Assembly (NCBI GenBank): GCA_903928075.1 | Contig: CAIYPD010000042.1 | Span: forward strand, 1-42,983 | DNA: 42,983 nt | Source of the DNA: Candidatus Firestoneibacteriota bacterium | Lineage (GTDB): Bacteria > Oederibacteriota > D2-FULL-39-29 | Reading direction: 5' to 3' | In this document: positions 161 to 23,198 of the stretch, one piece after another | Layout of the letters: each line of letters begins with the position of its first letter | Numbering within the stretch: the first letter of the stretch is position 1 | The notes under the pieces: model-generated | What the model was told of the DNA's origin: nothing | The model's database searches: none | What the model saw: only the letters and a program-made list of their open reading frames with translations | Position numbers and translations under genes: made by a program

Positions 161-820
161 ATGGACATGATTAGCTTACATAACCATACTATACATTCTG
201 ACGGGGAATTGCTTCCTTCCGAGCTTGCCCGGTATTGCGAGGTTATCGGGTATTCTTATGTCGGGATTACGGATCATGCAGATTCTTCTAATATGGAAGA
301 ACTTATTAAGGGGGCTATCAGGGTTTGCCGGGATATAAACAAGTATTTTGCTTCTATCAAGGCTATTCCGGGCATTGAACTTACCCATGTGGCGCCGAAG
401 AACATTTTCGTTCTTGCAAAAGAGGCCAGAAGGCTCGGAGCGAAGCTTATCCTGGTGCACGGTGAGACCATTGCGGAGCCGGTGCGGCCGGGAACAAATT
501 TTGAAGCGCTAAACTCGGATATAGATATTCTTGCGCATCCCGGTAATATTACAAAACAGGAAGCGGCGCTCGCAAAAAAACGCGGCATCTACCTTGAGAT
601 AACAACTAAGCACGGTCATTCTCTTACTAATGCCCATGTGGCAAAAATGGCCCGGCAAGCCGGAGCAAAAATGGTCCTTAATACCGACGGACACCGCCCC
701 GGAGAATTTGTGACCCTGGCGCAGGGCTTGAAAGTAGCGGCCGGCGCGGGCCTTTCCCCGGCAGAAGCAAAACAACTTATAAAAAATTCCGAACTTATAG
801 CCAAGGAGAAACTTAGATGA
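161..820 (+). CDS. PHP-domain metal-dependent phosphoesterase
   Basis: A 219-residue PHP-fold protein, the family that includes histidinol phosphatases, polymerase PHP domains and nucleoside-phosphate phosphoesterases. The metal-binding motifs are in family order: HNH...SDG (His7, His9, Asp14), TDHAD (His39), GIE (Glu73), VHGE (His100), AHPG (His126) and NTDGH (Asp176, His178), so the trinuclear site looks intact and catalysis is expected. It is probably cytoplasmic, with no signal peptide. The exact substrate cannot be read from sequence; histidinol phosphatase is unlikely because no his genes are nearby. The ATG follows GAGGTG at a good distance. The stop overlaps the next start by 4 bp (ATGA), so it heads a translationally coupled operon. 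Confidence 0.85.
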   Translation: MDMISLHNHTIHSDGELLPSELARYCEVIGYSYVGITDHADSSNMEELIKGAIRVCRDINKYFASIKAIPGIELTHVAPKNIFVLAKEARRLGAKLILVHGETIAEPVRPGTNFEALNSDIDILAHPGNITKQEAALAKKRGIYLEITTKHGHSLTNAHVAKMARQAGAKMVLNTDGHRPGEFVTLAQGLKVAAGAGLSPAEAKQLIKNSELIAKEKLR

Positions 821-1482
821 AAAAAGAAAAAGAACAATTTAAGAAATCTATGCACGAGGATGAGCTGGTATCCTTTGCCGCGAAGGTAGTCGAATATTTT
901 AAGAACCCGGCTAACACAAAAAAATGGCTGGATATACTTTTCTATGTGGTTATCGGTATTGTGGCCCTCTTTATGTTCCGTAACTGCCAGGTTAATAAAG
1001 AAAATACGGTTAAAAATAAGCTGGGCCCGGCTGAGTACAAATTTATCAACGGGGACTATGAAGGGGTTATTCCGCTTTTAAACGATATAAACAAAGATTA
1101 TCCGAACACCAAATTCTCCGGCCAGGCGCTTTATTACCTCGGCGAGGCGAATTACAGACTCGGAAAATATGATGAGGCCGTAAAGGCTTTTGAGGCCGGA
1201 AAGAAAAAATATCTGCCTGATTTGATGAAGCCGCTGGTCTATATGTCGCTGGGTTACTCCTACGAGGCCCAGAAGAATTATTTGAAGGCTGCAGAAACCT
1301 TCGAAGAAGCGCTTAAAGTATTCCCGAACCATTACAGCCGCGACGAAGTGCTGGTGAATGCCGCAAGATGTTTAAGGCTGGCCGGCAAGAACGATGAAGC
1401 CAGAGCCCGTTACGAAGAGATATTGAACAAATATCCCAATTCCCAATGGATTGATACCGCAAAACAGAACCTTGGCAGGTAG
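817..1482 (+). CDS. membrane-anchored tetratricopeptide repeat protein
   Basis: A 221-residue protein with a charged cytoplasmic N-terminus, one membrane segment at about 38-54 (ILFYVVIGIVALFMF) and then tandem TPR helices at about 70-220, with spacing such as ALYYLGEANYRLGKYDEAV and AETFEEALKVFPNH. The layout of one membrane helix followed by a C-terminal TPR domain outside the cytoplasm resembles YfgM and YbgF/BamD-type envelope scaffold proteins, so a role in protein-protein contact at the envelope is inferred. It overlaps the PHP gene by 4 bp and is followed 9 bp later by the GH57 gene. No catalytic motif is visible. It is unlikely to be BamD itself because it lacks a lipobox. Confidence 0.75.
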   Translation: MKKEKEQFKKSMHEDELVSFAAKVVEYFKNPANTKKWLDILFYVVIGIVALFMFRNCQVNKENTVKNKLGPAEYKFINGDYEGVIPLLNDINKDYPNTKFSGQALYYLGEANYRLGKYDEAVKAFEAGKKKYLPDLMKPLVYMSLGYSYEAQKNYLKAAETFEEALKVFPNHYSRDEVLVNAARCLRLAGKNDEARARYEEILNKYPNSQWIDTAKQNLGR

Positions 1483-1491
1483 TCCAAAACA

Positions 1492-3684
1492 ATGGGCGTT
1501 AACAGCATCTACATAGCTTTTGTCTGGCACATGCACCAACCGTATTACAAGGACCTGGCGACCGGTAAATATAAAATGCCCTGGGTCCGCCTGCATGGCA
1601 CAAAAGACTATCACTTTATGGCGGAACTTCTTGACGGGTATCCTAAAATCAGACAGACCTTTAATCTCGTTCCTTCCCTGCTTTCCCAGATAGAAGACTA
1701 TGCCGGAAACGATGCCGCCGATTATCTTATGGAACTCACGCAAAAGAAAGCCTCCGAACTCGGACCTGAAGATAAGACCGGGATTCTCTGGAATTTTTTT
1801 ATGTCCAATTGGGATAATATGGTTAAACCTTATCCCCGTTACTTTGAACTTCTTGAAAAGCGGGGTTACTTTATTTCTCAAAAGGAACTTCCGGAAATTG
1901 CGGGTAAGTTCAGCGTCCAGGATTATCTGGATTTGCAGGTTTGGTTCAACCTCTCCTGGATAGATCCTTTGACTCAGGCAAAGAGCCCGGAACTGCAGGC
2001 GCTTGTTAAGAAGGGCGGAAAATTTACGGAAGAAAATAAGCAGACCGTAATGGCAAAGCATAAAGAATTGATGGGGCTCATCGTGCCCAAATATAAAGAG
2101 GTTTCCGACCGGGGGCAGATAGAACTTACGACTACACCCTTTTATCATCCCATACTTCCTCTGGTTTACGACAGTTCCATTGCCAAGGTTTCACTTCCTA
2201 AGCTGGTGATGGATTTCAAATTTTCCTCGCCGGAAGACGCAGAAGAACAAGTGCGCCGGGCGGTGGAATTTCACGAGAAGAAATTCGGGGCCAAGCCCAA
2301 AGGTTTATGGCCGGCAGAAGGCAGTGTGAGCGAGGATATCCTTCCTCTGGTGGCCAAATACGGCATAAAGTGGATGGCGACCGATGAAGAGATACTTATG
2401 CAGTCGCTCGGGACCTTCGATAGAAAGAATAACTATCTTTACAAACCCTATATTGCAAAAAAAGACGGGACGGAAATGAATATGATTTTCCGCAACAAAG
2501 AACTGGCGGACGCCATAGGCTTTGTTTATTCAAAGTGGGACGCCGGGGCGGCGGTTAATGATTTTATAGGAAAAATTTACGGTATTGCCGATTCCTCGAA
2601 CATTCAAAATCCCCTGCTCAGCGTTATACTTGACGGAGAAAATGCCTGGGAGTATTACAAAAACAACGGCCTGGATTTTTTTAATACTTTATACCGGCGG
2701 CTCTCTGATGATGACAGAATCAAGACGGTCACTGTCTCTGAGTACCTGGAGAAATTTCCGCCCAAGGAAGTGTTGCCGAAGCTTTATCCGGGTTCCTGGA
2801 TTAATCATGATTTTTATGTCTGGATCGGGCATGAAGAAGATATTAAGGCCTGGGATTATCTTTACCGGGTTAAGCAGGATATGGATACCTGGAAGAACGA
2901 TTTTAAAGAAAAAGATCCCGGGGTATATGAAAAGATAAAACAGGAAATGCTTATTGCCGAGGGGAGTGACTGGTGCTGGTGGTACGGAGACGACCATTCC
3001 TCTGTTCAAGACGAGGAGTTTGACCGGCTTTTCAGAAAACACCTGGCAAATATATTCGAGCTGGCGGGTAGAGATGTTCCACCCTATCTCTTGATGCCGG
3101 TAATAAACGATGCCCGGACAGTTGCGCCTCATGCCGCTCCTACGGCGTTGATAAAGCCGGTTATAGACGGTAAAATATCAAATTATTACGAGTGGAATGC
3201 CGCGGGTATCTTTGAAGTTATTAAATCCGGCTCGGCAATCCACCGCGCCGAGACGGTGACCAAGGCTTTATATTTCGGGTTCGATAACACTAATCTTTAT
3301 CTGCGGATAGATTTTAATTCTCCGCTCTCAATTGAAAAATACAGGGAATATAATTTTGAGATAGCCATCTTCAATAAAGCATTCTACAAAATAAGTTTTG
3401 ATTTGAAAAATCCGGGAACAGAAATAAATTGTGATTTCTCCGTGCAGACCGAAGACAAAAAAAGCTGGGAAATGATGGACTCTGCCGGAATTCAAATAGC
3501 CGCCGCAAAGATTGTGGAGCTCCGGATTCCGGTTAAAAAGCTTCGAATTCAAGAGGGTGAAACGGCTTCTATCTCTTTTATGGTGCTAAAAAACAAAAAC
3601 GAAATTGAAAGATGGCCGGCCACCGGAAATATCGGCGTCACCGCGCCGACGAAAGATTTTGAATCAATAAACTGGCAGGTTTAA
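1492..3684 (+). CDS. glycoside hydrolase family 57 protein with C-terminal carbohydrate-binding-like domain
   Basis: A 730-residue protein. The GH57 motifs are present: HMHQPYY near the start (His15-Gln16-Pro17), GLWPAEGSV with the likely nucleophile Glu276, and DGENAWEYY with the likely acid Asp381. GH57 enzymes act on alpha-glucans (amylase, amylopullulanase, 4-alpha-glucanotransferase) or alpha-galactosides; which one applies here cannot be told. Residues about 552-725 form a separate domain opening with PVIDGKI and containing YFGFDNTNLYLRIDF, which resembles CBM9/DOMON-type sandwich domains found behind other GH57 enzymes. There is no signal peptide, so it is probably cytoplasmic and works on storage glucan. 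It lies between a TPR gene and a lipoprotein gene, and the next gene starts on the base after its stop. Confidence 0.88.
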   Translation: MGVNSIYIAFVWHMHQPYYKDLATGKYKMPWVRLHGTKDYHFMAELLDGYPKIRQTFNLVPSLLSQIEDYAGNDAADYLMELTQKKASELGPEDKTGILWNFFMSNWDNMVKPYPRYFELLEKRGYFISQKELPEIAGKFSVQDYLDLQVWFNLSWIDPLTQAKSPELQALVKKGGKFTEENKQTVMAKHKELMGLIVPKYKEVSDRGQIELTTTPFYHPILPLVYDSSIAKVSLPKLVMDFKFSSPEDAEEQVRRAVEFHEKKFGAKPKGLWPAEGSVSEDILPLVAKYGIKWMATDEEILMQSLGTFDRKNNYLYKPYIAKKDGTEMNMIFRNKELADAIGFVYSKWDAGAAVNDFIGKIYGIADSSNIQNPLLSVILDGENAWEYYKNNGLDFFNTLYRRLSDDDRIKTVTVSEYLEKFPPKEVLPKLYPGSWINHDFYVWIGHEEDIKAWDYLYRVKQDMDTWKNDFKEKDPGVYEKIKQEMLIAEGSDWCWWYGDDHSSVQDEEFDRLFRKHLANIFELAGRDVPPYLLMPVINDARTVAPHAAPTALIKPVIDGKISNYYEWNAAGIFEVIKSGSAIHRAETVTKALYFGFDNTNLYLRIDFNSPLSIEKYREYNFEIAIFNKAFYKISFDLKNPGTEINCDFSVQTEDKKSWEMMDSAGIQIAAAKIVELRIPVKKLRIQEGETASISFMVLKNKNEIERWPATGNIGVTAPTKDFESINWQV

Positions 3685-5415
3685 ATGAAAACAACACCGG
3701 CAAGCTTTGCAGGCGCATTACTCGTTGCGGTATTTTTCAGCTCCTGTGCGTCGCAAACCGGCGCTTTGACCGAAATCGTCAAGGTGGAGCCGGTAAGTAT
3801 TTCTATTCCTGAACCGCCGCCGCCCCTGCCTTTACCGCAAATACAAAAGGCCGAAGAGCCCCGTACTGAAACAGTCTGTGAAACTTTAAAACTTGGCGCG
3901 GTCCTGCCGCTTTCCGGAGAGCCGGCTGTTTACGGCCAGAGAGCAAAAAATGGGATTGAGCTGGCGGTTAAAATATTCAATAGCAAGAAAAAAAGCAAGG
4001 TGACAGTTGTTTATAATGATTCGGAGGAAAAGAATCCTCTTTCTTTGCTGGCCCCCTGGGGTTCTCCGGAAATAGCTGTTAAGGAATTTTATAAAACCGT
4101 GGCCGCTGACAGTTCAACGGTGGGTATTATCGGCCCGGTTCATAATAATTCTATTACCTTACTTGCAGAACTGGCCGAAACGCATAAGGTGCCGACTATC
4201 TCCCCTTCGGCGTTTGGTCTAAAAAAACCGAAAGATTCCCAATATTTTTATGCTAATTCCGTATTCCCCGAAGACGAAGGCAAAAACATTGCGGAATTTG
4301 CATTCAATGTTCTTAAAAAGAAAAGGGCTGCCGTTATTTATCCCGGGAATAATGCCTATGGCAGTGCCTGTGCCGCAGCCTTTAAGGAAGAGCTGGTCCG
4401 GCTCGGAGGCGAGGTTACGAGGGAGGAGGCGTTCAAAGAAGGTTCTTATGATTTTAAGGAGCAAATGGTTAATCTCGGCGGGGTGGACCCGCATATAATA
4501 AAAAACATTATCGCGGCCGATAAATCCAATCTGGAGAGTATTATCGCAAAACTGGTTCTTCAGCTCCGGGCCTTTTTCCCGGCGGCAACAGAAAAGAAGC
4601 GTAATAGCGTGATTATGCTGAAGTTTACCAATGCCGGCAGGGAAAATGAGCAAATGGCGGAGGATTTTGATTTTGCCAGGATAATCTCAGAAAAATTGAG
4701 TTACGGGTTGGGGAAACATAAGGACATCCTCCTTCCTAAAATGGCGGAGGTCAAGAGTTTTATCGAAAAGAAAGGCTTTAATAAGAAAGCCCTGGCGGAA
4801 AAATTCGGGGCCGGAATTATTATTTCGGGCTTGGTAAGCGAGAAAACTCCTCTGAACTATAACTGTAAGGTGACCGTCGAGAATTTAAAAGAGAAGACTT
4901 CTGTCGAAGTACTCTTTGATTTTACGGTTTCGGATAAACTTGTCACGAATCCTTATGAGCTGGAGGCCGTTTATTTGCCTGTAAGCGCTTATGATGCAGA
5001 GAGCCTGCTCTCGCATCTGATATTTTTTGAACTCAAAGTCCCCTATCTCGGGAACAGCCGGCTTAACGACAAGAAATTTACCGCTAATGTAAAACAGAAC
5101 GAGGGCGAACTTTACTATACCGCGGAATTCAATGCTTTCAGTACAATTCCAATAGTTGCCGATTTTGTCCAGGCGTACAAGGATAGTTATTTTGAGGTTC
5201 CCGATTATTACAGCGCTGCCGCTTATGACGCGGCTAATATATTTTTGCAGGCTATAGCCGGAGGTGCTTTCAGTAAAGAGGAAGTAAAAAATTCTATTAG
5301 AAATATTTCTACTATGAATCTGGTGACGGGCAATATTTCTTTTGACGGGGCGGCCCTGAGAAAGGAGCTGCATATTATGGGAATTAAAGACAAAGAACTT
5401 ATAGAGCTTAAATAA
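3685..5415 (+). CDS. lipoprotein with periplasmic-binding (LpoA/LivK-like) fold and nested TolB/CsgG-like domain
   Basis: A 576-residue protein. The signal peptide ends in lipobox FSSC (Cys21), and a proline-rich linker follows at about 34-55. Residues 68-266 are the first part of a type 1 periplasmic-binding fold (LGAVLPLSGEPAVYGQRA, GIIGPVHNNS, TISPSAF, AAVIYPGNNAYG). The fold resumes at about 425 (EAVYLPVSAYDAE, VPYLGNS, YYSAAAYDAANIFLQA). In between, residues 307-410 read like a TolB-N/CsgG/LpoB domain: SVIMLKFTNAG, a helix, then AEKFGAGIIISGLVSE. LpoA (binding-protein fold) and LpoB (TolB-like fold) activate penicillin-binding proteins in enteric bacteria, so a peptidoglycan-synthesis activator is a plausible role. 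A branched-chain amino-acid binding protein is the alternative, but no transporter genes are adjacent. The VanZ-like gene overlaps its stop by one base. Confidence 0.75.
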   Translation: MKTTPASFAGALLVAVFFSSCASQTGALTEIVKVEPVSISIPEPPPPLPLPQIQKAEEPRTETVCETLKLGAVLPLSGEPAVYGQRAKNGIELAVKIFNSKKKSKVTVVYNDSEEKNPLSLLAPWGSPEIAVKEFYKTVAADSSTVGIIGPVHNNSITLLAELAETHKVPTISPSAFGLKKPKDSQYFYANSVFPEDEGKNIAEFAFNVLKKKRAAVIYPGNNAYGSACAAAFKEELVRLGGEVTREEAFKEGSYDFKEQMVNLGGVDPHIIKNIIAADKSNLESIIAKLVLQLRAFFPAATEKKRNSVIMLKFTNAGRENEQMAEDFDFARIISEKLSYGLGKHKDILLPKMAEVKSFIEKKGFNKKALAEKFGAGIIISGLVSEKTPLNYNCKVTVENLKEKTSVEVLFDFTVSDKLVTNPYELEAVYLPVSAYDAESLLSHLIFFELKVPYLGNSRLNDKKFTANVKQNEGELYYTAEFNAFSTIPIVADFVQAYKDSYFEVPDYYSAAAYDAANIFLQAIAGGAFSKEEVKNSIRNISTMNLVTGNISFDGAALRKELHIMGIKDKELIELK

Positions 5416-5798
5416 TGAAAAAAACAAAATATCTTTACTGGCTGCCGGCGGTGTTATTTGCTTCGCTTATTTTCTATATGTCTGAACAGCAGAATCCCCC
5501 GGGCGCTTCACTCTTTGAATTTCTGCCGAACGCCGATAAGCTCGCCCATATGGCCGAGTATTTTATTCTGTCAATGTTTGTTTATCTCGCACTGGTGAAG
5601 GTGCATGCTTTTAGGACACCCGCTGCGGCCTTTTTTTCTATTATGATTGTCTCAATATACGGCGCTAGCGATGAGTTCCATCAGAATTTCACGCCGGGAC
5701 GGACGGTTGATTTTTTTGACTGGCTGGCCGACTTAACGGGGGCTCTGGCGGCGCAGTCCGGAATAATAATGCATAAGATAATAGATGATTTATTATAG
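5415..5798 (+). CDS. VanZ-like family membrane protein
   Basis: A 127-residue protein with about four hydrophobic segments (9-27, 45-62, 70-88 and 103-122). The VanZ hallmarks are present: DKLAHMAEYF, followed by GASDEFHQNFTPGR and DWLADLTGA. VanZ-like proteins are small integral membrane proteins; the namesake gives low-level teicoplanin resistance, but most chromosomal members have no proven function and are often near envelope genes. The TAATG overlap with the preceding lipoprotein gene suggests translational coupling. Being at the end of an operon with a possible penicillin-binding-protein activator supports, without proving, an envelope role. Confidence 0.85.
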   Translation: MKKTKYLYWLPAVLFASLIFYMSEQQNPPGASLFEFLPNADKLAHMAEYFILSMFVYLALVKVHAFRTPAAAFFSIMIVSIYGASDEFHQNFTPGRTVDFFDWLADLTGALAAQSGIIMHKIIDDLL

Positions 5799-5861: not shown

Positions 5862-5906
5862 TTGCTGTGTGCTGCAGTGTTTTAGATTGAAATTAGGGTG
5901 GCAAAT

Positions 5907-7016
5907 ATGAAGCGGAGATACAGTATTGCATATATATTATTTCTGTTAGTATTTTTGAAAACCGGCCTGGCTGGGGAATGGCTTCAATTCCGCGGGAACC
6001 CTTATGGTACGGGTGTTTCTGATTCAAAGCTCTCCAAAAACCTGAAAGTTAAATGGCTTTACGACGCCAAAGCAGCTGTTTTCGCAACGCCTGCGTTAAC
6101 AAAAAACCGTGTTTATCTGGGACTTACCGGTAAATTTATCTGTCTTGATCTGAGCAAAGGAAAATTACTTTGGAGTTTTCCCCTTAAAGATGAAGTCCGC
6201 TCGTCGGCGCTGGTTTATAAAGGAAAGGTATTTTTCGGCAATGACCAGGGGGTACTTTATGCTCTGGATGCTGAAACCGGGAAGAAACTCTGGAGTTATG
6301 AAGCCGAACAGAAGATAATTTCTTCACCGGCCGAGAGCGGCGACAAAATTATCTTTGGCAGTTACGACGGCAACATTTATGCTCTGAACGCGGCGGATGG
6401 TAAGCAGGTCTGGAGTTTCGGGGTAGAGTCACCCATTCACGGGTCTCCGGCAATTTCCGGAAAAAATACGGTAGTGGCCGGCTGTGACGGGAACTTCAGA
6501 TTCATAGACCTTTTAACCGGAAAAGAGGATTTCATTATACCTTTAGAAAGTAATATTGTTGCCTCGCCCGCTGTGACGAAAAACAGGGTCTATGTGTCTT
6601 CTCTTACAGGAAAATTTTTCTGTGCGGATACTTCTTCAAAGAAAATACTCTGGGAGTATTTTGATGAGAAGAATGAACAATGTTATTCCTCGCCGGCGGT
6701 CAATGAAAGTGCGATAATCTTCGGTACCAACGGTAATTTTCTGAGATGTCTGGAGCCCGCAACCGGTAAACTTAAATGGACCTTCGGCACCGGCGGAAAA
6801 ATAGAGTCCTCTCCGGTTATTGCGGGTGAGAATGTGTTTTTCGGCAGTGAGGACGGTAAACTTTACGGGGTTACTCTTGCCGGGGGCAAAAAAAGTTTTG
6901 AATTTGACACGGGCAGCGCCCTTGCCGGTTCAGCCGCGGTTTCTGCAGGCAATCTGGTTACCGGCACAAGCGGAGGCCTGATTTATTGTTTTTTTGAGGA
7001 GCAAGCAGTCCAATGA
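5907..7016 (+). CDS. secreted PQQ-like (BamB-type) beta-propeller protein
   Basis: A 369-residue protein with a Sec signal peptide (MKRRYSIAYILFLLVFLKTGLAG) and then repeated propeller blades. Each blade shows a short VY/IYAL strand followed by an A-x-G-K-x-x-W turn (DAETGKKLWSY, NAADGKQVWSF, EPATGKLKWTF), giving about seven or eight blades. Such blades occur in BamB and in PQQ-dependent dehydrogenases, but the calcium and disulfide ligands of true quinoproteins are not evident, so I call it PQQ-like and non-enzymatic by default. It is expected outside the inner membrane. An in-frame GTG nine bases upstream lies inside the AGGGTGG ribosome-binding site, so the ATG is preferred. Its end overlaps the next gene by 4 bp. 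It is the first gene after the promoter at 5833. Confidence 0.8.
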   Translation: MKRRYSIAYILFLLVFLKTGLAGEWLQFRGNPYGTGVSDSKLSKNLKVKWLYDAKAAVFATPALTKNRVYLGLTGKFICLDLSKGKLLWSFPLKDEVRSSALVYKGKVFFGNDQGVLYALDAETGKKLWSYEAEQKIISSPAESGDKIIFGSYDGNIYALNAADGKQVWSFGVESPIHGSPAISGKNTVVAGCDGNFRFIDLLTGKEDFIIPLESNIVASPAVTKNRVYVSSLTGKFFCADTSSKKILWEYFDEKNEQCYSSPAVNESAIIFGTNGNFLRCLEPATGKLKWTFGTGGKIESSPVIAGENVFFGSEDGKLYGVTLAGGKKSFEFDTGSALAGSAAVSAGNLVTGTSGGLIYCFFEEQAVQ

Positions 7017-8422
7017 ACAACGCCAGATTTTTGGGCCTGACTATAGCTTTCTTGATCATTCTTGCCGGTTTTTATTTAGCTTTTAGATGGCTGAATCTGC
7101 CGGTTTTTGAGGATTTAACCCTGCGTATTCCTTCCTCGGAAAAAGTCGAAGGCCTAAAACTGCCGGAAGAAACCGGGAAAAAAATAGAGGCAGGCGGTTT
7201 AATAAAAGGGGCAGGAATACCTTCAGAAGAAAAAGGCAGCTGGCCAAAATTTAGAGGTCCGGCCGGAGACGGAACGAGCGCGGAGACGGGGCTGATAAAA
7301 AAGATACCGCCGGCGGGCCTGCCTATATTATGGAGAGTAAAGACGGGAGAAGGCTACGCTGGTCCGGTAATAAATATGGGACGGGTTTACCTTATAGACT
7401 ATGATAAAGAGGCTAAACAGGATTCCATCAGGTGCCTTTCTTTTAAAACCGGAGAGGAGATCTGGAAGTATAATTATCCGGTAAAAATAAAGAGAAATCA
7501 CGGAATATCAAGGACTGTCCCGGCTGTTAATGATAAATACCTTGTTACGATAAGCCCGATGTGCCAGGTTACCTGTTTAAAGGCGGCAACCGGGGAGATG
7601 TTATGGAAAAAAGACCTGGTTAAAGAATTCGGGACGAAAGTCCCGGAATGGTACGCCGGACAATGTCCTATTATAGAAGGGGATAAAGTGATACTCGCTC
7701 CAGGCGGTAGTGAAGTTCTTTTAATGGCAGTTGAACTGGCTACCGGCAAAATAACCTGGACGGTGAAAAATCCGGGGGACTACAAAATGACCCATTCTTC
7801 CGTTGCTATTCTTGACTTTAAAGGGGAGCGGCAGTATATTTACTGTGCGACGCAGGGAGTTGTCTCGGTCTCGGCAAAGACCGGGGAAATTCTCTGGCTG
7901 GATCCCACCTGGAAGATAAATATAGCCAATGTCCCGACTCCGGTCATAGTGGATACCGATAAGATACTATTTACCGGCGGCTATGATGCGGGTGCCAAAT
8001 ATGTGCAGGTGGTTAAGGACGAGAGTGAGGGAAAGTATAAAATAAAGGAACTGTTTAAGGTTAAAGCCTCTGTTTTTTCTTCGCAGCAGCACACCCCGGT
8101 CTATTATCAGGGGAGTTTTTACGGTGTAATCCAGGACGGCCAGCTGGCATGTGTGGACCAGGCCGGAAAGCAGTTATGGAAGAGCGGCGGAGAAAAGAAA
8201 TTCGGCCTGGGGCCTTTCTTTATCGCCGATGGAATGCTTCTGGTTTTGAACGATACAAGCGGTTATCTATATCTAGTTGAGGCCGGAACCGGCGGCTATA
8301 ATGAATTCGGAAAAGCGAAGGTATTTAACGGCCATGAGGCCTGGGCGCCTATGGCTCTGGCGGATGGAAAGTTGATACTTAAGGATCTGACCGAACTGGT
8401 TTGCGTAAGGTTGAAACCCTGA
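7013..8422 (+). CDS. membrane-anchored PQQ-like beta-propeller protein
   Basis: A 469-residue protein with an N-terminal hydrophobic anchor (about 7-26) that has no clear cleavage site, a linker, then a propeller beginning near residue 75 with WPKFRGPAGDG. This opening is the W-x-x-FRGP-x-G-x-G signature typical of PQQ-like proteins in planctomycete-type genomes. Blade turns such as KAATGEMLWKKD and SAKTGEILWLD repeat through the sequence. The protein is probably tethered to the outer face of the inner membrane. It is closely related to the product of the gene at 9722: both carry SRT-x-PAV, C-x-V-x-CL and DLVKE-[FY]-G in the same order. The start overlaps the previous stop by 4 bp and the next gene follows with TGATG coupling. 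Ligand or partner is unknown. Confidence 0.8.
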   Translation: MNNARFLGLTIAFLIILAGFYLAFRWLNLPVFEDLTLRIPSSEKVEGLKLPEETGKKIEAGGLIKGAGIPSEEKGSWPKFRGPAGDGTSAETGLIKKIPPAGLPILWRVKTGEGYAGPVINMGRVYLIDYDKEAKQDSIRCLSFKTGEEIWKYNYPVKIKRNHGISRTVPAVNDKYLVTISPMCQVTCLKAATGEMLWKKDLVKEFGTKVPEWYAGQCPIIEGDKVILAPGGSEVLLMAVELATGKITWTVKNPGDYKMTHSSVAILDFKGERQYIYCATQGVVSVSAKTGEILWLDPTWKINIANVPTPVIVDTDKILFTGGYDAGAKYVQVVKDESEGKYKIKELFKVKASVFSSQQHTPVYYQGSFYGVIQDGQLACVDQAGKQLWKSGGEKKFGLGPFFIADGMLLVLNDTSGYLYLVEAGTGGYNEFGKAKVFNGHEAWAPMALADGKLILKDLTELVCVRLKP

Positions 8423-9450
8423 TGGACAGAAAAATAATATTTAAAAACGGTATCTGGATTTTACTGGTAGCGGCCGGGCTCGTGGGCGGCTATTTTATGG
8501 CTTCTAGTTATATTCCGGGCAATACTGCCGTAAACGAAGTAAAAAGCGATGGGGCCGGAAATCCTGCCTTGCCGGAAAACTTTAAATATGATATGGCAAA
8601 ACTTAAACAGTATGACCCAAGGCAGTTGCTCTATGGGGAAGAAACAAAAATTAAAACCGGGCTTAAGGAACCTTTCGGGCTTACTGTTAACAAAAAAGAC
8701 GGCCGCGTACTGGTGGTTTCAACAGAAGGTATGCTGGTTTGTGATGGCGCGATTGCCGGAAAAGTAGCCGCTCTGCCGGTCAGACTTGAAGGGCCGGGCA
8801 GTGTTTCTTTTGGTTTTGCCGGGGAGTTGTTATTAGCCGGCAGGGACAGGGTAAATATTGTTTCCGGGACTATTATCGGGTTCGGAAAAAAAGGTAAAGG
8901 GGTGGGTGAGTTTAAATATATAACCTCCGTCAAAGCAAACGCTAAGTATATTTTTACGGCGGATGCCGGGAACAGAAGAGTATGCAAATTTGATCTTAAA
9001 GGAAAGTACCTGGGGCAAATAGGCAGGAAGGATAAGGCTGCCGGCAAGAATTTTGTTATCCCGAGCCCGCATATGGATATGGATTTTGACAGTAAAGGAA
9101 ACCTTTGGGTGGCAAATGCCGGGCTGCTTCAGCTGGAAAAGTATTCTCCGGAGGGAGTATTTGTTTCTTCCTGGGGAAAACACGGGATTAATATTGATGA
9201 ATTTATTGGCTGCTGTAATCCTGTTAATTTTGTTATAGACGGCGGGGATAATTTTATTACAGCGGAAAAAGGCGTACTCAGGATTAAAAAATACGATAAA
9301 ACCGGGAAGTTTCTCGGGGTGGTTGCACCGCCCGGGACCTTTAATGAAAAAAACACTAGTATTCCCCTGGCTGTGGATTCAAAAAACAGGGTTTACGCGC
9401 TGGATACGATAGAGAAAACGGTCAGAGTGTTTTCGGAAAAGGGATATTAA
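8422..9450 (+). CDS. membrane-anchored NHL-repeat beta-propeller protein
   Basis: A 342-residue protein with an N-terminal membrane segment (about 10-30) and then NHL-type six-bladed propeller repeats: FTADAGNRRVCKFDLKG, LWVANAGLLQLEKYSPEG and FITAEKGVLRIKKYDKTG, each with the hydrophobic-strand then K-x-D/S-x-x-G pattern. NHL propellers bind ligands or proteins and some have lactonase or lyase activity; no catalytic residues can be assigned here. The ATG overlaps the upstream stop by one base (TGATG), which fixes the start. A TTG in frame 21 bases upstream is less likely. It probably sits outside the inner membrane beside the two PQQ-like propellers. The stop codon is the first part of the repeat array that follows. 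Confidence 0.78.
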   Translation: MDRKIIFKNGIWILLVAAGLVGGYFMASSYIPGNTAVNEVKSDGAGNPALPENFKYDMAKLKQYDPRQLLYGEETKIKTGLKEPFGLTVNKKDGRVLVVSTEGMLVCDGAIAGKVAALPVRLEGPGSVSFGFAGELLLAGRDRVNIVSGTIIGFGKKGKGVGEFKYITSVKANAKYIFTADAGNRRVCKFDLKGKYLGQIGRKDKAAGKNFVIPSPHMDMDFDSKGNLWVANAGLLQLEKYSPEGVFVSSWGKHGINIDEFIGCCNPVNFVIDGGDNFITAEKGVLRIKKYDKTGKFLGVVAPPGTFNEKNTSIPLAVDSKNRVYALDTIEKTVRVFSEKGY

Positions 9451-9511
9451 GTTTTTAAAGTTTGTAAAGTTTTTAAGGTCCATAAGGTCTAAAATCGTTG
9501 AAATATATTTA
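9447..9511 (+). repeat. 9-bp tandem repeat array plus conserved core (copy 2)
   Basis: Units ttaagtttt, taaagtttg, taaagtttt, taaggtcca and taaggtcta run into the core aaatcgttgaaatatattta. The array begins in the stop codon of the NHL gene. It is closely related to copies at 18871 and 30173. Confidence 0.75.
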
Positions 9512-9670
9512 ATTTTTTCAAGTATCTGTGTCATCTGTTTTTTATCTGTGAAATCAGCTGCGCTTTTAGCAGCATAAGGTCTAAAATCGCGGAAGGATGT
9601 TTATTGGTTTTGGTTTTTGTATCTGTGTCATCTGTTTTGTATCTGGGCCATCAGCTGCGCTTTTAGCAGC
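9483..9670 (+). repeat. tandem duplication of a roughly 95-bp unit with hairpins
   Basis: Each unit contains the 9-mer core (taaggtctaaaatcg at 9483 and 9575), a segment beginning gtatctgtgtcatctg (9522 and 9619, 97 bp apart), and a terminal hairpin GCTGC-gctttta-GCAGC (9557-9573 and 9654-9670). A second, bulged hairpin follows at 9669-9688. The 271-bp gap between the NHL gene and the next propeller gene is almost all repeat and shows no ORF of its own. These structures could attenuate or stabilise the transcript between the two parts of the cluster. Confidence 0.65.
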
Positions 9671-9721
9671 GGAAGCTCAAAGCTCCGCAAGCAGTAAAAT
9701 CGTTTTTGATAGGAGGAAGAT

Positions 9722-10966
9722 ATGTTTGGAACAAAAGTAAAGGCAGTAGTTCTTGTGTTTCTTGCTGTTGCCGTTTTCAAGGCGGGAGATTTCACGCAAT
9801 TTCTCGGGGAGAACCGGAGCGGGGTGGTCACAACCGGAAAAAATCTTTTAAAAAAATGGCCGGAGGAAGGATTGAAGGAACTCTGGCGTATCCCGGTTGC
9901 CGGCGGATTTGCCACTCCCGCTATATCCCAGGATAAATTATTTCTTCTGGATTATGATCTTTCCAAAGAAGAAGATACAGTCAGGTGCCTCGATTTAAAA
10001 AACGGTAAAGAACTTTGGAAATTCGGGTATCACTCAAAAATAAAACCCACTGCGTATGATTATTCAAGGACTATGCCGGCGGTTTCCGGTAAATATGTCG
10101 TGACCTTCGGAACTTCTTGTGTGGTTTCCTGTTTAGAGAAAGATACCGGAAAACTTGTCTGGCAGAAAGACCTGGTGAAAGAATACGGCGCTAAAATTCC
10201 CGGCTGGGCGGCTGGGCAGAATCCATTAGTAGACGGGGACAAAGCAGTAATACTTATCTCGGGAGACAAGGTCCAGATGGCTGCGTTTGACCTGGGCTCG
10301 GGCAAAGTACTCTGGGAAACGCCCTGGGACAGTAATTCAGGCTTGACCCATAACTCGGTAACGGCCATGACCTTCGAGGGCGAAAAATTTTATATCGGAT
10401 GTTCCAAAAAAAGCGCGTTTGGTGTCTCTGCTTCTTCCGGAAAACTTCTTTGGAACCATCCCGGCTGGACGGTTAAAACAGCTAATATTCCCGCGCCGCT
10501 GGTCATAGGCAAAGACAGGATATTTTTTACCGGTGGTTATGGTGCCGGCAGTCTTATCTTGGGCTTGAAAAAGAACGGTAAGGATATTGTTGCAGAAGAA
10601 ATTACAAGAATAACCGCAAAAGATTTTGGCTCTCATGTCCAAACACCTATATTATATAAGGGGAGTATCTACGGTGTCTCCGGCGGTGAGATAACCTGCC
10701 TGGATCTTGACGGAAAAGTGCTCTGGAAGAGCGGCAAGGTGAAAGTCGGTCTGGGCTCGTATTTGTTTATAGATGATTTGCTCTATGTTTGGAGTGATAT
10801 CGGGACTCTGCTCCTTGTGGAACCTTCTACAAGCGAGTATAAAGAAATTTCTAGATTCAGCGCCCTTAAAGGGAAGCAAATGTGGTCCCCGATTTCTGTT
10901 TCCGGGTCAAAATTGGTGGTAAGAAGCATGACTGAGATGGTGTGTCTGGATCTTGAAGGGAAGTAG
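9722..10966 (+). CDS. secreted PQQ-like beta-propeller protein (paralogue of the gene at 7013)
   Basis: A 414-residue protein with a short N-terminal signal sequence (about 5-20, VKAVVLVFLAVAVFKAG) and then a propeller starting near FTQFLGENRSG. Blade turns include DLKNGKELWKFG, EKDTGKLVWQKD and SASSGKLLWNH. It follows the protein encoded at 7013 blade by blade (both have DYDLSK/DYDKE, SRT-x-PAV, DLVKE-x-G, AGQ-x-P, NVP/NIP and FTGGY-x-AG), so the two arose by duplication. A strong AGGAGGA ribosome-binding site precedes the ATG. It starts after 271 bp of repeat DNA, so it may have its own transcript. It lacks quinoprotein ligands that I could recognise. Likely extracytoplasmic; function unknown. 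Confidence 0.8.
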   Translation: MFGTKVKAVVLVFLAVAVFKAGDFTQFLGENRSGVVTTGKNLLKKWPEEGLKELWRIPVAGGFATPAISQDKLFLLDYDLSKEEDTVRCLDLKNGKELWKFGYHSKIKPTAYDYSRTMPAVSGKYVVTFGTSCVVSCLEKDTGKLVWQKDLVKEYGAKIPGWAAGQNPLVDGDKAVILISGDKVQMAAFDLGSGKVLWETPWDSNSGLTHNSVTAMTFEGEKFYIGCSKKSAFGVSASSGKLLWNHPGWTVKTANIPAPLVIGKDRIFFTGGYGAGSLILGLKKNGKDIVAEEITRITAKDFGSHVQTPILYKGSIYGVSGGEITCLDLDGKVLWKSGKVKVGLGSYLFIDDLLYVWSDIGTLLLVEPSTSEYKEISRFSALKGKQMWSPISVSGSKLVVRSMTEMVCLDLEGK

Positions 10967-11938: not shown

Positions 11939-13223
11939 TTATAAAAGAGTGCTCATAGGCGCTATTTTTCTTTACCTGGTTGCGAGCCCGGTATTCGGCG
12001 AATATAAATTCCCGCCGCCGGAGTTTGATACTAACTATCTCGTACCGGTAATGAGGACAGTTCCGGCCCGGGCCGACTGGCTGGTGTATCTGGATATTTT
12101 TATCTTAATAGAGGTTATTTTGTTGTCTGCGTGGGCTTCGCTTAAGCGTAGATCCAGAAATATTGTTATGCTTATCTCAATGTTTTCACTTTTATACTTC
12201 GGTTTTTATAAAGAAGGCTGTATTTGTCCGATAGGCGCTGTGCAGGATATTGTACTCTCTCTAACTAACCCGAACTATTATCTGCCTTTCACGGCAGTCT
12301 TGATATTTATTATTCCTCTGGTTGCCTCGCTATTTATCGGACGGGCGTATTGCGGCGGTGCCTGCCCGCACGGAGCACTGCAGGATCTTCTATTGCTTAA
12401 AGAAATAAAAATTCCGCGCTGGCTGGATCGCTCTCTTTCCATGCTCGCTTATATCTATCTCGGCCTGGCTGTTCTTTTTGCCCTGACGGACTCAGTCTTT
12501 CTAATTTGCAAATATGATCCTTTCGTTCCTATCTTCCGGCTTACCGGGCCGTTTTATATGCTTTTAAACGGGGGATTCTTCGTTTTACTCTCATTATTTA
12601 TCGGCCGGCCCTACTGCCGTTTTCTTTGTCCTTATGGAGCGCTATTAAAACCGCTGGCTCTGGTTAGCCGCGAGAAAGTAACAATAACGCCGGATAAATG
12701 CATTGTTTGTAAACTTTGTGAAGATTCGTGCCCGTTTGGAGCAATCAATAAACCGGATAAACCGGAAAGAAGGAAGGCTAAGAACCGGCTGGTTGTACTC
12801 GGGCTTTTTATTTCAGGACTGATAGCAGGCGGAGTGCTCGGTAACTACACCGGCGCGCTTCTGGCCACTTATAATAGAGATGTTAAACTGGCAGTAGAAA
12901 TATACGCCTATAGCGAGGGTGAGCCCGAAAAAATAATTCTTTCCGACTATGCAAAAGAATATATCCGGACCGGGGAAAGTTCCCTCCTGCTCTATGAGAA
13001 AGTTGCCGGCGTAAAGAATAAATTCAAAACCGGCGGTATTTATCTCGGGGTCTGGATAATGTTTGTTATGGGCTTACAGTTCCTATATGCCGCAAGAAAA
13101 CCCAAAAGAGATATCTATGAACCGGATAGCGCCAGATGCATGTCCTGTGCCAGATGTTTCAGGGATTGTCCTATAGAAAGACAGGAGAAGAGTACGGGTG
13201 ATGGATCAAGAAAACAGGAATAA
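11928..13223 (+). CDS. membrane polyferredoxin of the NosR/NapH type
   Basis: A 431-residue integral membrane protein with about eight hydrophobic segments. Cysteine motifs are EGCICPIGAVQD (Cys98, Cys100), YCGGACPHGALQD (Cys142, Cys146) and YCRFLCPYGALL (Cys230, Cys234), followed by a ferredoxin motif C258-x2-C-x2-C-x3-CP. A second ferredoxin motif lies at the C-terminus, C404-x2-C-x2-C-x3-CP. The paired C-x3-CP loops plus a cytosolic ferredoxin segment are the hallmark of NapH and of the C-terminal half of NosR, which pass electrons across the membrane to periplasmic reductases. The start is GTG with AAGGAAGG just upstream, overlapping the ferredoxin gene by 11 bp. The extra first cysteine motif and the second C-terminal ferredoxin exceed the usual NapH. 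It also overlaps the next gene. Confidence 0.85.
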   Translation: MKVNYKRVLIGAIFLYLVASPVFGEYKFPPPEFDTNYLVPVMRTVPARADWLVYLDIFILIEVILLSAWASLKRRSRNIVMLISMFSLLYFGFYKEGCICPIGAVQDIVLSLTNPNYYLPFTAVLIFIIPLVASLFIGRAYCGGACPHGALQDLLLLKEIKIPRWLDRSLSMLAYIYLGLAVLFALTDSVFLICKYDPFVPIFRLTGPFYMLLNGGFFVLLSLFIGRPYCRFLCPYGALLKPLALVSREKVTITPDKCIVCKLCEDSCPFGAINKPDKPERRKAKNRLVVLGLFISGLIAGGVLGNYTGALLATYNRDVKLAVEIYAYSEGEPEKIILSDYAKEYIRTGESSLLLYEKVAGVKNKFKTGGIYLGVWIMFVMGLQFLYAARKPKRDIYEPDSARCMSCARCFRDCPIERQEKSTGDGSRKQE

Positions 13224-14910
13224 TATTTTAAGGTTGTTCTTTAAGCAGGTGGCGGTCGCGGCTGCAATTGTTGCTATTCTTGCGGCGCTGACCCTGACTG
13301 TTTATTATCTCTCGGGACAGCAGGGCAATATTCAAGATTCTCCCGTGCTGACAGCATTAAAAGCAAAACTGGAGAAATATCCGGATAATGAGAAACTCCT
13401 TTTTGAGTTCAGGGATCAGGATCTTAAGGAAAGAACCGCGTTTTTTAGAAAGAGCAGTTTTCTTGATTACGGGAAAAATATATTTATTGTCTTTTTTCTG
13501 CTGGCTTTGGCGGCGTTCCGCTTGAAAGGCGTTTTTACCGAGAGGCTCCCTGAAGTAAAAAAAGGAAGCGAAACAGTCTATAAGACCGGGGAGTTAGCCG
13601 GTGCCAATATTTATATGGTCTCCTCGGGCCTTACGGCGGTTATCATTTTGGGCCTGCTCGGGACTTTTGCAATTTGGGGTTTTCAGAAGTTACCTTTTGA
13701 GCCGGCGGAGACAGAAATTAAGGAAAAAGTAATAGATCTGTCTTCCGCCTGGAATGGTTTTCGGGGTCCGGCAGGGACCGGCCTGGTAAAAGACGGCAAT
13801 TATGTAAAAGAGTGGGATATTAAAACAGGAAAAAATATTATCTGGCAAATTGCGTTGCCTGTAAAATCCTATAGTTCCCCGGTTGTTTACAAAGATAATC
13901 TTTTCTTGACCGGCAGTGAAGCTAAAGTACTTAAGGTTAGCTGTTATGACGCAAAAAACGGGAGCCTTAAATGGTCTTCAAGTGTTATGGTGCCGGTAAA
14001 ACTTGACGATGTTGAGATTATGTCGGAAGATGCCGGCGGGGCGGGTTATGCCGCGCCTACTACGGTGACTGACGGGGAGCTTGTCTTTGCTTTCTTTGCC
14101 ACCGACCACCTGGTCTGCTTTGATTATGCCGGAAAACAACGCTGGGTTAAATATTTCGGGAAATCCGAGAACACTTACGGGCTTTCTTCTTCACCGCTTC
14201 TTTGGAAGAAGAATATTATATTGCAGCTGGACCGGGGCGGCGAGGGTCTTTCGAAACTGGTGTCGCTTGACAGAAAAACGGGCCAGATAACCTGGGAAAC
14301 AAAAAGACCCGTCGGGGCCTCGTGGGGGACTCCGGCGATAATTGAATACAAAGGTAAAAATGAACTTATAACCACCGGCGAGGAGCAGGTAATTTCTTAT
14401 GACCCGGATACGGGCAAAGAGCTCTGGCGCGTAAAATGCCTGACCGGCGAGATTTCAACTTCACCTGTCTACGGGGACGGAAAAATCATTGCCATAGATG
14501 TAGGTTCTGTTTCAACTGTGAGCGCTATTATTCCGGGCGGTGCCGGTGATGTTACAAAAACTAATATTGTTTGGTCGATGCAGGAAGAAAATCAGGCTAT
14601 AAATACGCCTGTTACCGACGGTAAGCTTCTTGTGGTCGCGATGAACTCTTTGGTGGTAGGTCAGGATATTAAAACCGGTAAAGTGCTCTGGAAAATTTCC
14701 CTGGAAGATGATTTCTGGGCCTCCCCTTCGCTGGTCAACGGGACTATATATGTTCCTTCCCAGAAGGGGAAAGTGTATATAGTAAGTTATGAGGGTAAAT
14801 TACTGGGAACTATGGATATGGACTCGAAATGTTCGGCTTCCCCGGCTTTTGTTGACGGAAAAATATTTATTAGAAGCGAGAAGAATCTTTTTTGTATAGG
14901 AACCCGGTGA
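13201..14910 (+). CDS. PQQ-like beta-propeller protein with three membrane segments
   Basis: A 569-residue protein. Residues 17-38, 92-107 and 139-160 are hydrophobic. Between the first two lies a soluble stretch with KLEKYPDNEKLLFEFRDQD and a charged helix. Residues 175-569 form a PQQ-like propeller opening with WNGFRGPAGTG and carrying turns such as DAKNGSLKWSS, DRKTGQITWETK and DPDTGKELWRVK. The large soluble domain is most likely outside the cytoplasm. It overlaps the polyferredoxin gene by 23 bp and the downstream flavoprotein by 4 bp, placing a propeller between membrane and NADH-oxidising components. A GTG three bases upstream of the ATG is an equally possible start. No quinoprotein active-site ligands were recognised. 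Confidence 0.8.
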   Translation: MDQENRNNILRLFFKQVAVAAAIVAILAALTLTVYYLSGQQGNIQDSPVLTALKAKLEKYPDNEKLLFEFRDQDLKERTAFFRKSSFLDYGKNIFIVFFLLALAAFRLKGVFTERLPEVKKGSETVYKTGELAGANIYMVSSGLTAVIILGLLGTFAIWGFQKLPFEPAETEIKEKVIDLSSAWNGFRGPAGTGLVKDGNYVKEWDIKTGKNIIWQIALPVKSYSSPVVYKDNLFLTGSEAKVLKVSCYDAKNGSLKWSSSVMVPVKLDDVEIMSEDAGGAGYAAPTTVTDGELVFAFFATDHLVCFDYAGKQRWVKYFGKSENTYGLSSSPLLWKKNIILQLDRGGEGLSKLVSLDRKTGQITWETKRPVGASWGTPAIIEYKGKNELITTGEEQVISYDPDTGKELWRVKCLTGEISTSPVYGDGKIIAIDVGSVSTVSAIIPGGAGDVTKTNIVWSMQEENQAINTPVTDGKLLVVAMNSLVVGQDIKTGKVLWKISLEDDFWASPSLVNGTIYVPSQKGKVYIVSYEGKLLGTMDMDSKCSASPAFVDGKIFIRSEKNLFCIGTR

Positions 14911-21950: not shown

Positions 21951-23198
21951 CTATTTATTTTTTACATCGTAAACAAAAAGATCGTTCTCATGTCTCAGGA
22001 ATAGTTTTCCGCCGACCACCACAGGATGGTTCCAGAAAAGATCCTTGCCTTCACTCTTAACCTGGAAGGTTCCGGCCTGCTTAAATTCTTTCGGGTTTGC
22101 TTCAACAAGCGTAACCTTGCCGCCTTTCTCGCTGTAACAGTAAAGCATGCCGTCGGCGTAAGTTATTGAGCCCTTGGTCACGCTTTTTTCTGACCAGACT
22201 TTTTTGCCGGCTTTCATATCCAGACAATGCAGGCCCTTGAAACTGTCTCCGGTCCCGTAAATATAGCCGTTAAGCAGAACGACTCCGCCATGATGGTTGT
22301 CTATATTTTTACCCGTCCAGACTTCCGTCGCGGCGCTTAGATTGTCATCAAGTTTGAAGCATTTGTCCTGGGTGCCGTAACCGCTTGAGATATAAACATA
22401 GCCGTCAAGGAAGACGGGGGTGGTGGCATGGACATCATAGGGAGTTTCATACGCAAATTTCCAGAGGAGCTTACCGGTTTTAGCGTCTATCCCGAGGGCA
22501 TATTTTGCGCTCATGGTCAAAAACATTCTCTTGCCTTTGTATTCTATTATGCTGCCGGAACAATAAGAAGCGTTATCATCAATGCTTTCTGTAGCCCAAA
22601 CCTGTTTGCCGGTTTTTTTGTCCAGCGCCAGGCAAAGAACATTCTTGCCTCCGGGCATACAAAGAAGATTATTGCCGTCTATGGTCACCGATTCCGAGTA
22701 ACCCCAGACCCCCACCGATCCTTTGGTCTCACTGCCTTTAAAGTTAAGAGTCCAAATTTCTCTCCCGGTTTTTGCGTCAAAGGCCCCGAGAAGTCCTACC
22801 ACGCTTAGTTGATAGACTATCCCCTCGCTGTATACAGGGGAACTTCTTTCGCCGGGGTAACTTCCGGTCCAGCCTTTTCCGCTTTCCGTCTGCCAGAGCA
22901 TTTTTCCGGCAAGATCAAAGGCTGTTATAGTGTTCTTACCTTTCAAATCTCCCGCCGTAAAAACCATATTGTCTGCGACCGTGACACCCACATAGCCCTT
23001 GCCGCATTTATCAAAACTCCAGAGAAGTTTCGGCCCTTCTTCCGGCCAGGTTTTCAGTAAATCTTTATCCGGGCTGATATTGTCGTGATTAAGGCCGTTG
23101 AAAGCAGGCCAGGAGGCATCTTTGGTTTCCGCAGAACAAAAAACCGAAAATAGAAACACCGCCGCAAGCACCGTTATACAAGAACAAACTTTTTTCAT
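21951..23198 (-). CDS. secreted PQQ-like beta-propeller protein
   Basis: A 415-residue protein with a signal peptide (about 1-23, MKKVCSCITVLAAVFLFSVFCSA; the cysteines might allow lipidation, but the lipobox is poor). It has propeller blades with turns DAKTGREIWTLN, DKKTGKQVWATE, DAKTGKLLWKFA and DMKAGKKVWSEK. The opening WPAFNGLNHDN replaces the FRGP motif of the cluster genes. It shares the overall plan of the proteins encoded at 7013 and 9722, so it is a more distant paralogue outside the cluster. GGGAGGG precedes the ATG; a promoter and a terminator frame it as a single-gene unit. It probably acts outside the inner membrane; ligand unknown. BamB is unlikely, as no bam genes are present. 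Confidence 0.82.
   Translation of the reverse strand: MKKVCSCITVLAAVFLFSVFCSAETKDASWPAFNGLNHDNISPDKDLLKTWPEEGPKLLWSFDKCGKGYVGVTVADNMVFTAGDLKGKNTITAFDLAGKMLWQTESGKGWTGSYPGERSSPVYSEGIVYQLSVVGLLGAFDAKTGREIWTLNFKGSETKGSVGVWGYSESVTIDGNNLLCMPGGKNVLCLALDKKTGKQVWATESIDDNASYCSGSIIEYKGKRMFLTMSAKYALGIDAKTGKLLWKFAYETPYDVHATTPVFLDGYVYISSGYGTQDKCFKLDDNLSAATEVWTGKNIDNHHGGVVLLNGYIYGTGDSFKGLHCLDMKAGKKVWSEKSVTKGSITYADGMLYCYSEKGGKVTLVEANPKEFKQAGTFQVKSEGKDLFWNHPVVVGGKLFLRHENDLFVYDVKNK

Follow-up and report, generated by a model that had tools for sequence, protein, structure and literature searches.

The locus described here raises the question of whether one lipoprotein can hold the folds of both LpoA and LpoB, and what such a protein would do. 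LpoA (YraM, Pfam PF04348 LppC) is the activator of PBP1A and LpoB (YcfM, Pfam PF13036) is the activator of PBP1B; on these penicillin-binding proteins (PBPs) the docking domain for LpoB is UB2H and that for LpoA is ODD (PCB_OB). The two activators have been described as unrelated, separate lipoproteins limited to gammaproteobacteria and enterobacteria, and Typas et al. regarded LpoA as restricted to gammaproteobacteria (PMC3060616). The window, the whole stretch of 42,983 nucleotides which was analysed, corresponds to contig G000:C42 in a genome of 2.7 Mb, and the finding of both Lpo folds in one of its proteins is of interest because the phylum is far from gammaproteobacteria and enterobacteria. 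The features are listed in Table 1.

Table 1. Features of the nested gene and of its neighbours, in window positions
Feature	Positions	Strand	Basis
Whole gene: predicted lipoprotein of 576 aa, LpoB-like domain nested in type I binding fold	3685..5415	+	ORF
Signal peptide up to Cys21, the presumed lipidation site (lipobox-like FSSC); residues 1-21	3685..3747	+	Sequence
Pro/Glu-rich leader, predicted disordered, residues 22-65	3748..3879	+	AF2 pLDDT mostly <50
First half of binding fold, lobe I plus beginning of lobe II, residues 66-268	3880..4488	+	Pfam, AF2 model, LivJ alignment
Insert in lobe II helix-strand loop, including lead-in helix 269-296, residues 269-427	4489..4965	+	AF2, LivJ alignment, phylum homologues
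LpoB/FlgO/TolB-N-type domain core, residues 307-414	4603..4926	+	Sequence profiles, AF2, structure comparison
Second half of binding fold, residues 428-576	4966..5412	+	Sequence hits, AF2 model, LivJ alignment
TPR protein, same conserved cluster	817..1482	+	
GH57 glycosidase, abuts nested gene	1492..3684	+	
VanZ-like protein, overlaps stop codon of nested gene	5415..5798	+	

Architecture of the nested protein

Based on Pfam, the window protein matches Peripla_BP_6 (E=5e-25) in two separate stretches; a search of NCBIfam gave no informative family. The AF2 model of the whole protein, obtained from an alignment with 25 relatives, reached a pLDDT of 82.7. For 3hut, a putative branched-chain amino-acid binding protein, 339/346 residues align to this model over residues 66-575 (Z 39.8, rmsd 2.4). 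Since 3hut is aligned over nearly its full length, residues 66-268 and 428-575 are predicted to make up a full type I periplasmic-binding fold, to which approximately 159 residues (269-427) are extra. The initial annotation had drawn the binding fold at 68-266 and 425-576 and the TolB-N/CsgG-like segment at about 307-410; the core of the insert is now placed at 307-414. LivJ/LivK-type solute-binding proteins match the host fold at Z 32-40, and the structures closest to the window protein are amino-acid binding proteins, not LpoA. The Foldseek matches include LpoA (5kcn/3ckm) at about 1e-12.

In the alignment the insert, which opens with the long helix 269-296, falls between E. coli LivJ residues 193 and 194, in lobe II, where a helix gives way to the following core strand. 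It had initially been assigned to the hinge region, which is contradicted by both the alignment and the model. Two stretches of E. coli LpoA are flexible; for the second, S493-N531, no function is known according to PMC4111904. The loop of lobe II bearing the insert is the loop of this flexible region 2, so that the nesting occurs at the very loop that is disordered in E. coli LpoA. In insert-free relatives from other phyla, this point is spanned by 14 or 66 residues.

When modeled alone, the insert gave a pLDDT of 87. Among solved structures the best structural alignment was to the LpoB C-terminal domain (Z 12.6, 122/135 residues, rmsd 2.7; Foldseek 8e-7), with only about 11% identity, and this alignment begins at the lead-in helix. 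Alignments to TolB (Z 9.2) begin after that helix; the remaining folds scored 10.1 (GNA1162), 8.6 (PelC), 8.5 (FlgT) and approximately 7 (CsgG). At the sequence level, LpoB was the best PDB hit of a profile made from 19 phylum inserts (E=0.07), and hhalign of the insert with E. coli LpoB resulted in an E value of 2e-4. Single members of the insert family matched FlgO (7.7e-6), FlgT_M (6e-5), LpoB (9e-4) and CsgG (1.3e-3) in Pfam; the window's own insert had no match to Pfam LpoB, which was matched weakly by two of the 19 homologous inserts, the better at 9e-4. Based on the models, the core 307-414 is predicted to be a domain of the TolB-N/FlgO/CsgG type which folds independently, and the profile searches point to kinship with the LpoB/FlgO/CsgG superfamily.

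The likeness to LpoB covers the C-terminal fold including its N-terminal helix and, in the window protein, a disordered Pro-rich leader behind the presumed lipid anchor; unlike LpoB, the domain is nested and not free-standing. The same superfamily fold is found in the FlgO/FlgT middle domain, the TolB N-terminal domain, CsgG, PelC and GNA1162, and for FlgO, FlgT_M and CsgG the kinship is also visible in the sequence, but these proteins have lower structural scores, belong to other systems and do not lie in a binding fold. Across the homologues the insert and the host fold diverge at similar rates, the insert being nearly as constrained, which indicates that it is under constraint. The insert was thus found to fold by itself and not as part of the binding domain, and to resemble LpoB, TolB and CsgG; the predictions for the insert alone and for the whole protein both support the nesting. 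The original proposal of an LpoB/TolB-like domain inside an LpoA/LivK-like fold in one lipoprotein is borne out by the split Pfam match, the AF2 models and the LpoB score, and the architecture, an LpoB-type domain nested in an LpoA-type protein, is almost certainly real.

Distribution and likeness to LpoA

The protein was matched in 42 of the 45 phylum genomes, and in about 35 of them the profile search, among the matches listed, places the insert domain within the binding-fold gene. Families f8 and f12 have a more divergent insert at the same site, which is still related to the main insert by profile-profile comparison (probability 84%, E 7.5e-6). Judging from these matches, the lobe II site carries the insert in nearly all of the 45 phylum genomes searched. 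The nearest named relative is a homologue with 69% identity to the window protein, from a Candidatus Firestonebacteria MAG; the single-protein query of genome contigs gave this one relative only.

The proposal that the same nesting be sought elsewhere was answered positively throughout the phylum and negatively beyond it, the long open frames examined, among the matches listed, from approximately 340 genomes of other phyla showing no nested case. In those phyla the insert-type domain is present without the binding fold, as free-standing proteins of mostly 200-400 aa. Long insert-matching frames from outside the phylum were considered as candidates and rejected, none having a nested binding fold; in G246 (L117/L129) a binding-fold frame is located near an insert-like domain, yet it is a separate gene. 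The strongest insert-domain match outside the phylum, among the matches listed, was a 312 aa frame of another phylum without a binding fold (L102:923-1858 of G088, E 4e-15). Literature searches on the fold combination returned no description of it, and the nested architecture is apparently new.

LpoA is composed of a TPR-like N-domain and a binding fold (PMC4111904). Many phylum homologues of the window protein are 770-800 aa long and have TPR repeats ahead of the binding fold. Six homologues with a long N-terminus were scanned, most with TPR matches; four passed the LppC cut-off of 28.8 bits (L011, 46.1; L020, 49.4; L026, 38.8; L021, 41.1), L018 was just below it (28.0) and L019 had no LppC match. 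The window protein resembles LpoA in being a predicted lipoprotein with a type I binding fold and in the position of its insert at the flexible-region-2 loop, as do its phylum homologues in their TPR N-terminal domain and, for several, in their LppC scores. It differs from LpoA in that this loop holds a folded LpoB-type domain, in the lack of a TPR domain and in an LppC score of 16.5 bits, below the gathering cut-off. Residues 22-65 occupy the place of the homologues' TPR domain, and the TPR part has been lost in the window's order.

The lipobox-like FSSC is located at Cys21 of the window protein and the genome encodes Omp85, from which we infer that the protein is anchored in the outer membrane as a lipoprotein. 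Omp85 was detected in 44 of 44 phylum genomes, which identifies the phylum as diderm. A clear lipobox is absent from the family f2 homologues.

Class A PBPs, the proposed role and its alternatives

A class A transglycosylase (TG) domain was identified in all 37 good-quality phylum genomes searched. The class A PBPs examined have TG and TP domains only, approximately 100 residues apart; the window genome has one such protein, encoded at L053:124-2187 on the minus strand, with TG from residue 67. Neither UB2H nor PCB_OB was detected in the window genome or elsewhere in its order, the E. coli control being positive, and the phylum PBPs examined differ in this from the partners of LpoB (UB2H) and of LpoA (ODD). 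UB2H hits in several phylum genomes were set aside: they are in frames of 770-1211 aa, mostly cover the first 45 positions and, based on length and partial coverage, seem closer to proteins of the Mfd/UvrB type than to PBPs. PCB_OB also gave weak hits in the phylum, likewise rejected as PBPs, their frames not being listed by the PF00912 search. The merging of LpoA and LpoB activities in one protein, as suggested in the initial annotation, is plausible from the sequence comparisons; since both known docking domains are absent from the phylum PBPs examined, it would need a different docking. No class A PBP gene was located near the nested gene in 26 loci or in nine wider regions.

Two other lineages show an LpoA-like gene linked to a class A PBP gene. 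In the G049 lineage (L131:4021-8463; L134-L159, L162), which is outside the window's phylum, 27 of 30 loci have a class A PBP gene as the convergent (tail-to-tail) neighbour of an insert-free gene for TPR and binding fold, and the PBP of G049 itself carries a PCB_OB (ODD-type) domain. In the G055 lineage (L132:4647-8460; L164-L171, L175, L189), in 10 of 30 loci the class A PBP gene lies directly downstream of an insert-free binding-fold gene, on the same strand, and the 429 aa LpoA-like protein of G055 is above the LppC cut-off; this pairing is possibly a second LpoA-PBP operon type. The first locus of each lineage was a chance observation, the lineages then being searched deliberately, and because the loci within each lineage are kin they amount to two independent arrangements, not 37. 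The linkage favours a role in peptidoglycan synthesis, and it is of interest in itself, given the published restriction of LpoA to that group (PMC3060616).

Control of peptidoglycan synthesis from the outer membrane is the reading which we prefer, with a probability of roughly 0.4. The protein would be an LpoA-type lipoprotein, anchored in the outer membrane, which mediates periplasmic protein contacts. Its type I fold, lacking an amino-acid ligand site, would be the scaffold, and the LpoB-like domain, held out from the lobe II loop by a long helix, could offer a further surface for docking. The leader, which is a TPR domain in most phylum families and a disordered Pro-rich linker here, would hold the folded part off the outer membrane, and the protein would bind the class A PBP or its complex, the nested domain adding a contact; we infer the outer-membrane location, the PBP partner and the activation alike. 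A more specific proposal, that of a single-polypeptide, phylum-wide regulator in which LpoA- and LpoB-type modules control a class A PBP without the known docking domains, is doubtful; if true, it would imply an outer-membrane control different from, and perhaps older than, the enterobacterial mode. If PBP control is true, outer-membrane control of wall synthesis would have an earlier origin and a more modular build than has been believed, and a single protein with a single PBP would make a simple test system.

The TolB-N-type fold is also used by Tol-Pal, flagella, curli and Pel export, so that a function is not nameable from the fold alone. An envelope scaffold which does not act on PBPs, its nested domain docking to a Tol-Pal-like, BAM-like or export complex and its binding fold being a rigid spacer, would account for an insert fold common to TolB, GNA1162, PelC and CsgG and for the lack of PBP docking domains and of PBP gene linkage in the phylum; in family f9, moreover, an OmpA/DUF4398 protein is encoded just upstream of the nested gene. 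We consider this a serious rival, though less likely than PBP control, as the LpoB score of 12.6 is clearly above those of the other TolB-N-type folds (10.1 and lower) and genes of the LpoA-like host family are neighbours of class A PBP genes in two lineages outside the phylum. That the protein is a flagellar accessory of the FlgO/FlgT type is hardly credible: the L-ring protein FlgH was found in none of the nine genomes of the window's order (E. coli FlgH control positive), in which the nested protein is kept, even though the lowest Pfam E value in the insert family is that for FlgO and FlgT aligns with the insert.

The host fold bears on two further alternatives. The top sequence hits of the window protein are LivK/LivJ-type proteins, as would be expected if it were a usual ABC-transporter solute-binding protein in which the insert is incidental. 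However, LivJ residues S79, T102 and E226, the ligand residues for the amino-acid head group, correspond in the alignment to N154, F177 and S458, and these positions vary across the family, T being present at the T102 position in only four of 30 aligned rows, LivJ among them. Branched-chain (Liv-type, LivHMGF) transporter genes, permease and ATPase included, were not found in the window; a distinct LivK-like gene is located elsewhere in the genome, at G000:C36. The 159-residue lobe II insert, a further difference from LivJ/LivK, is kept through the phylum under constraint, and the solute-binding explanation is very improbable. It is somewhat less improbable that the type I fold binds a small molecule other than an amino acid and that this binding is signalled to an envelope partner through the nested domain. 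The two-lobe fold is predicted to be complete with good scores, the insert is located in lobe II, and Tyr225 (LivJ Tyr150) is aromatic in every aligned row; the loss and variability of the head-group residues tell against such a sensor, as does the absence of transporter genes and of sensor-kinase genes, none of the latter having been found next to the nested gene.

Gene neighbourhood

The nested gene belongs to a cluster with the order PHP - TPR - GH57 - nested gene, which is kept in both families of the window's order. The splitting of an ancestral TPR and binding-fold gene into the gene at 817-1482 and the nested gene was considered; the TPR protein could be a stand-in for the lost TPR domain. 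A HisS/HisZ-type gene follows the nested gene in families f6, f8, f9, f11 and f12 (L057-L062). Neither this context nor the PHP-TPR-GH57 one reveals the function of the nested protein. BamB/PQQ-type beta-propeller proteins are encoded in the window at 5898-10966, 13198-14910 and 21951-23198, at least two of them being paralogues with approximately 40% identity.
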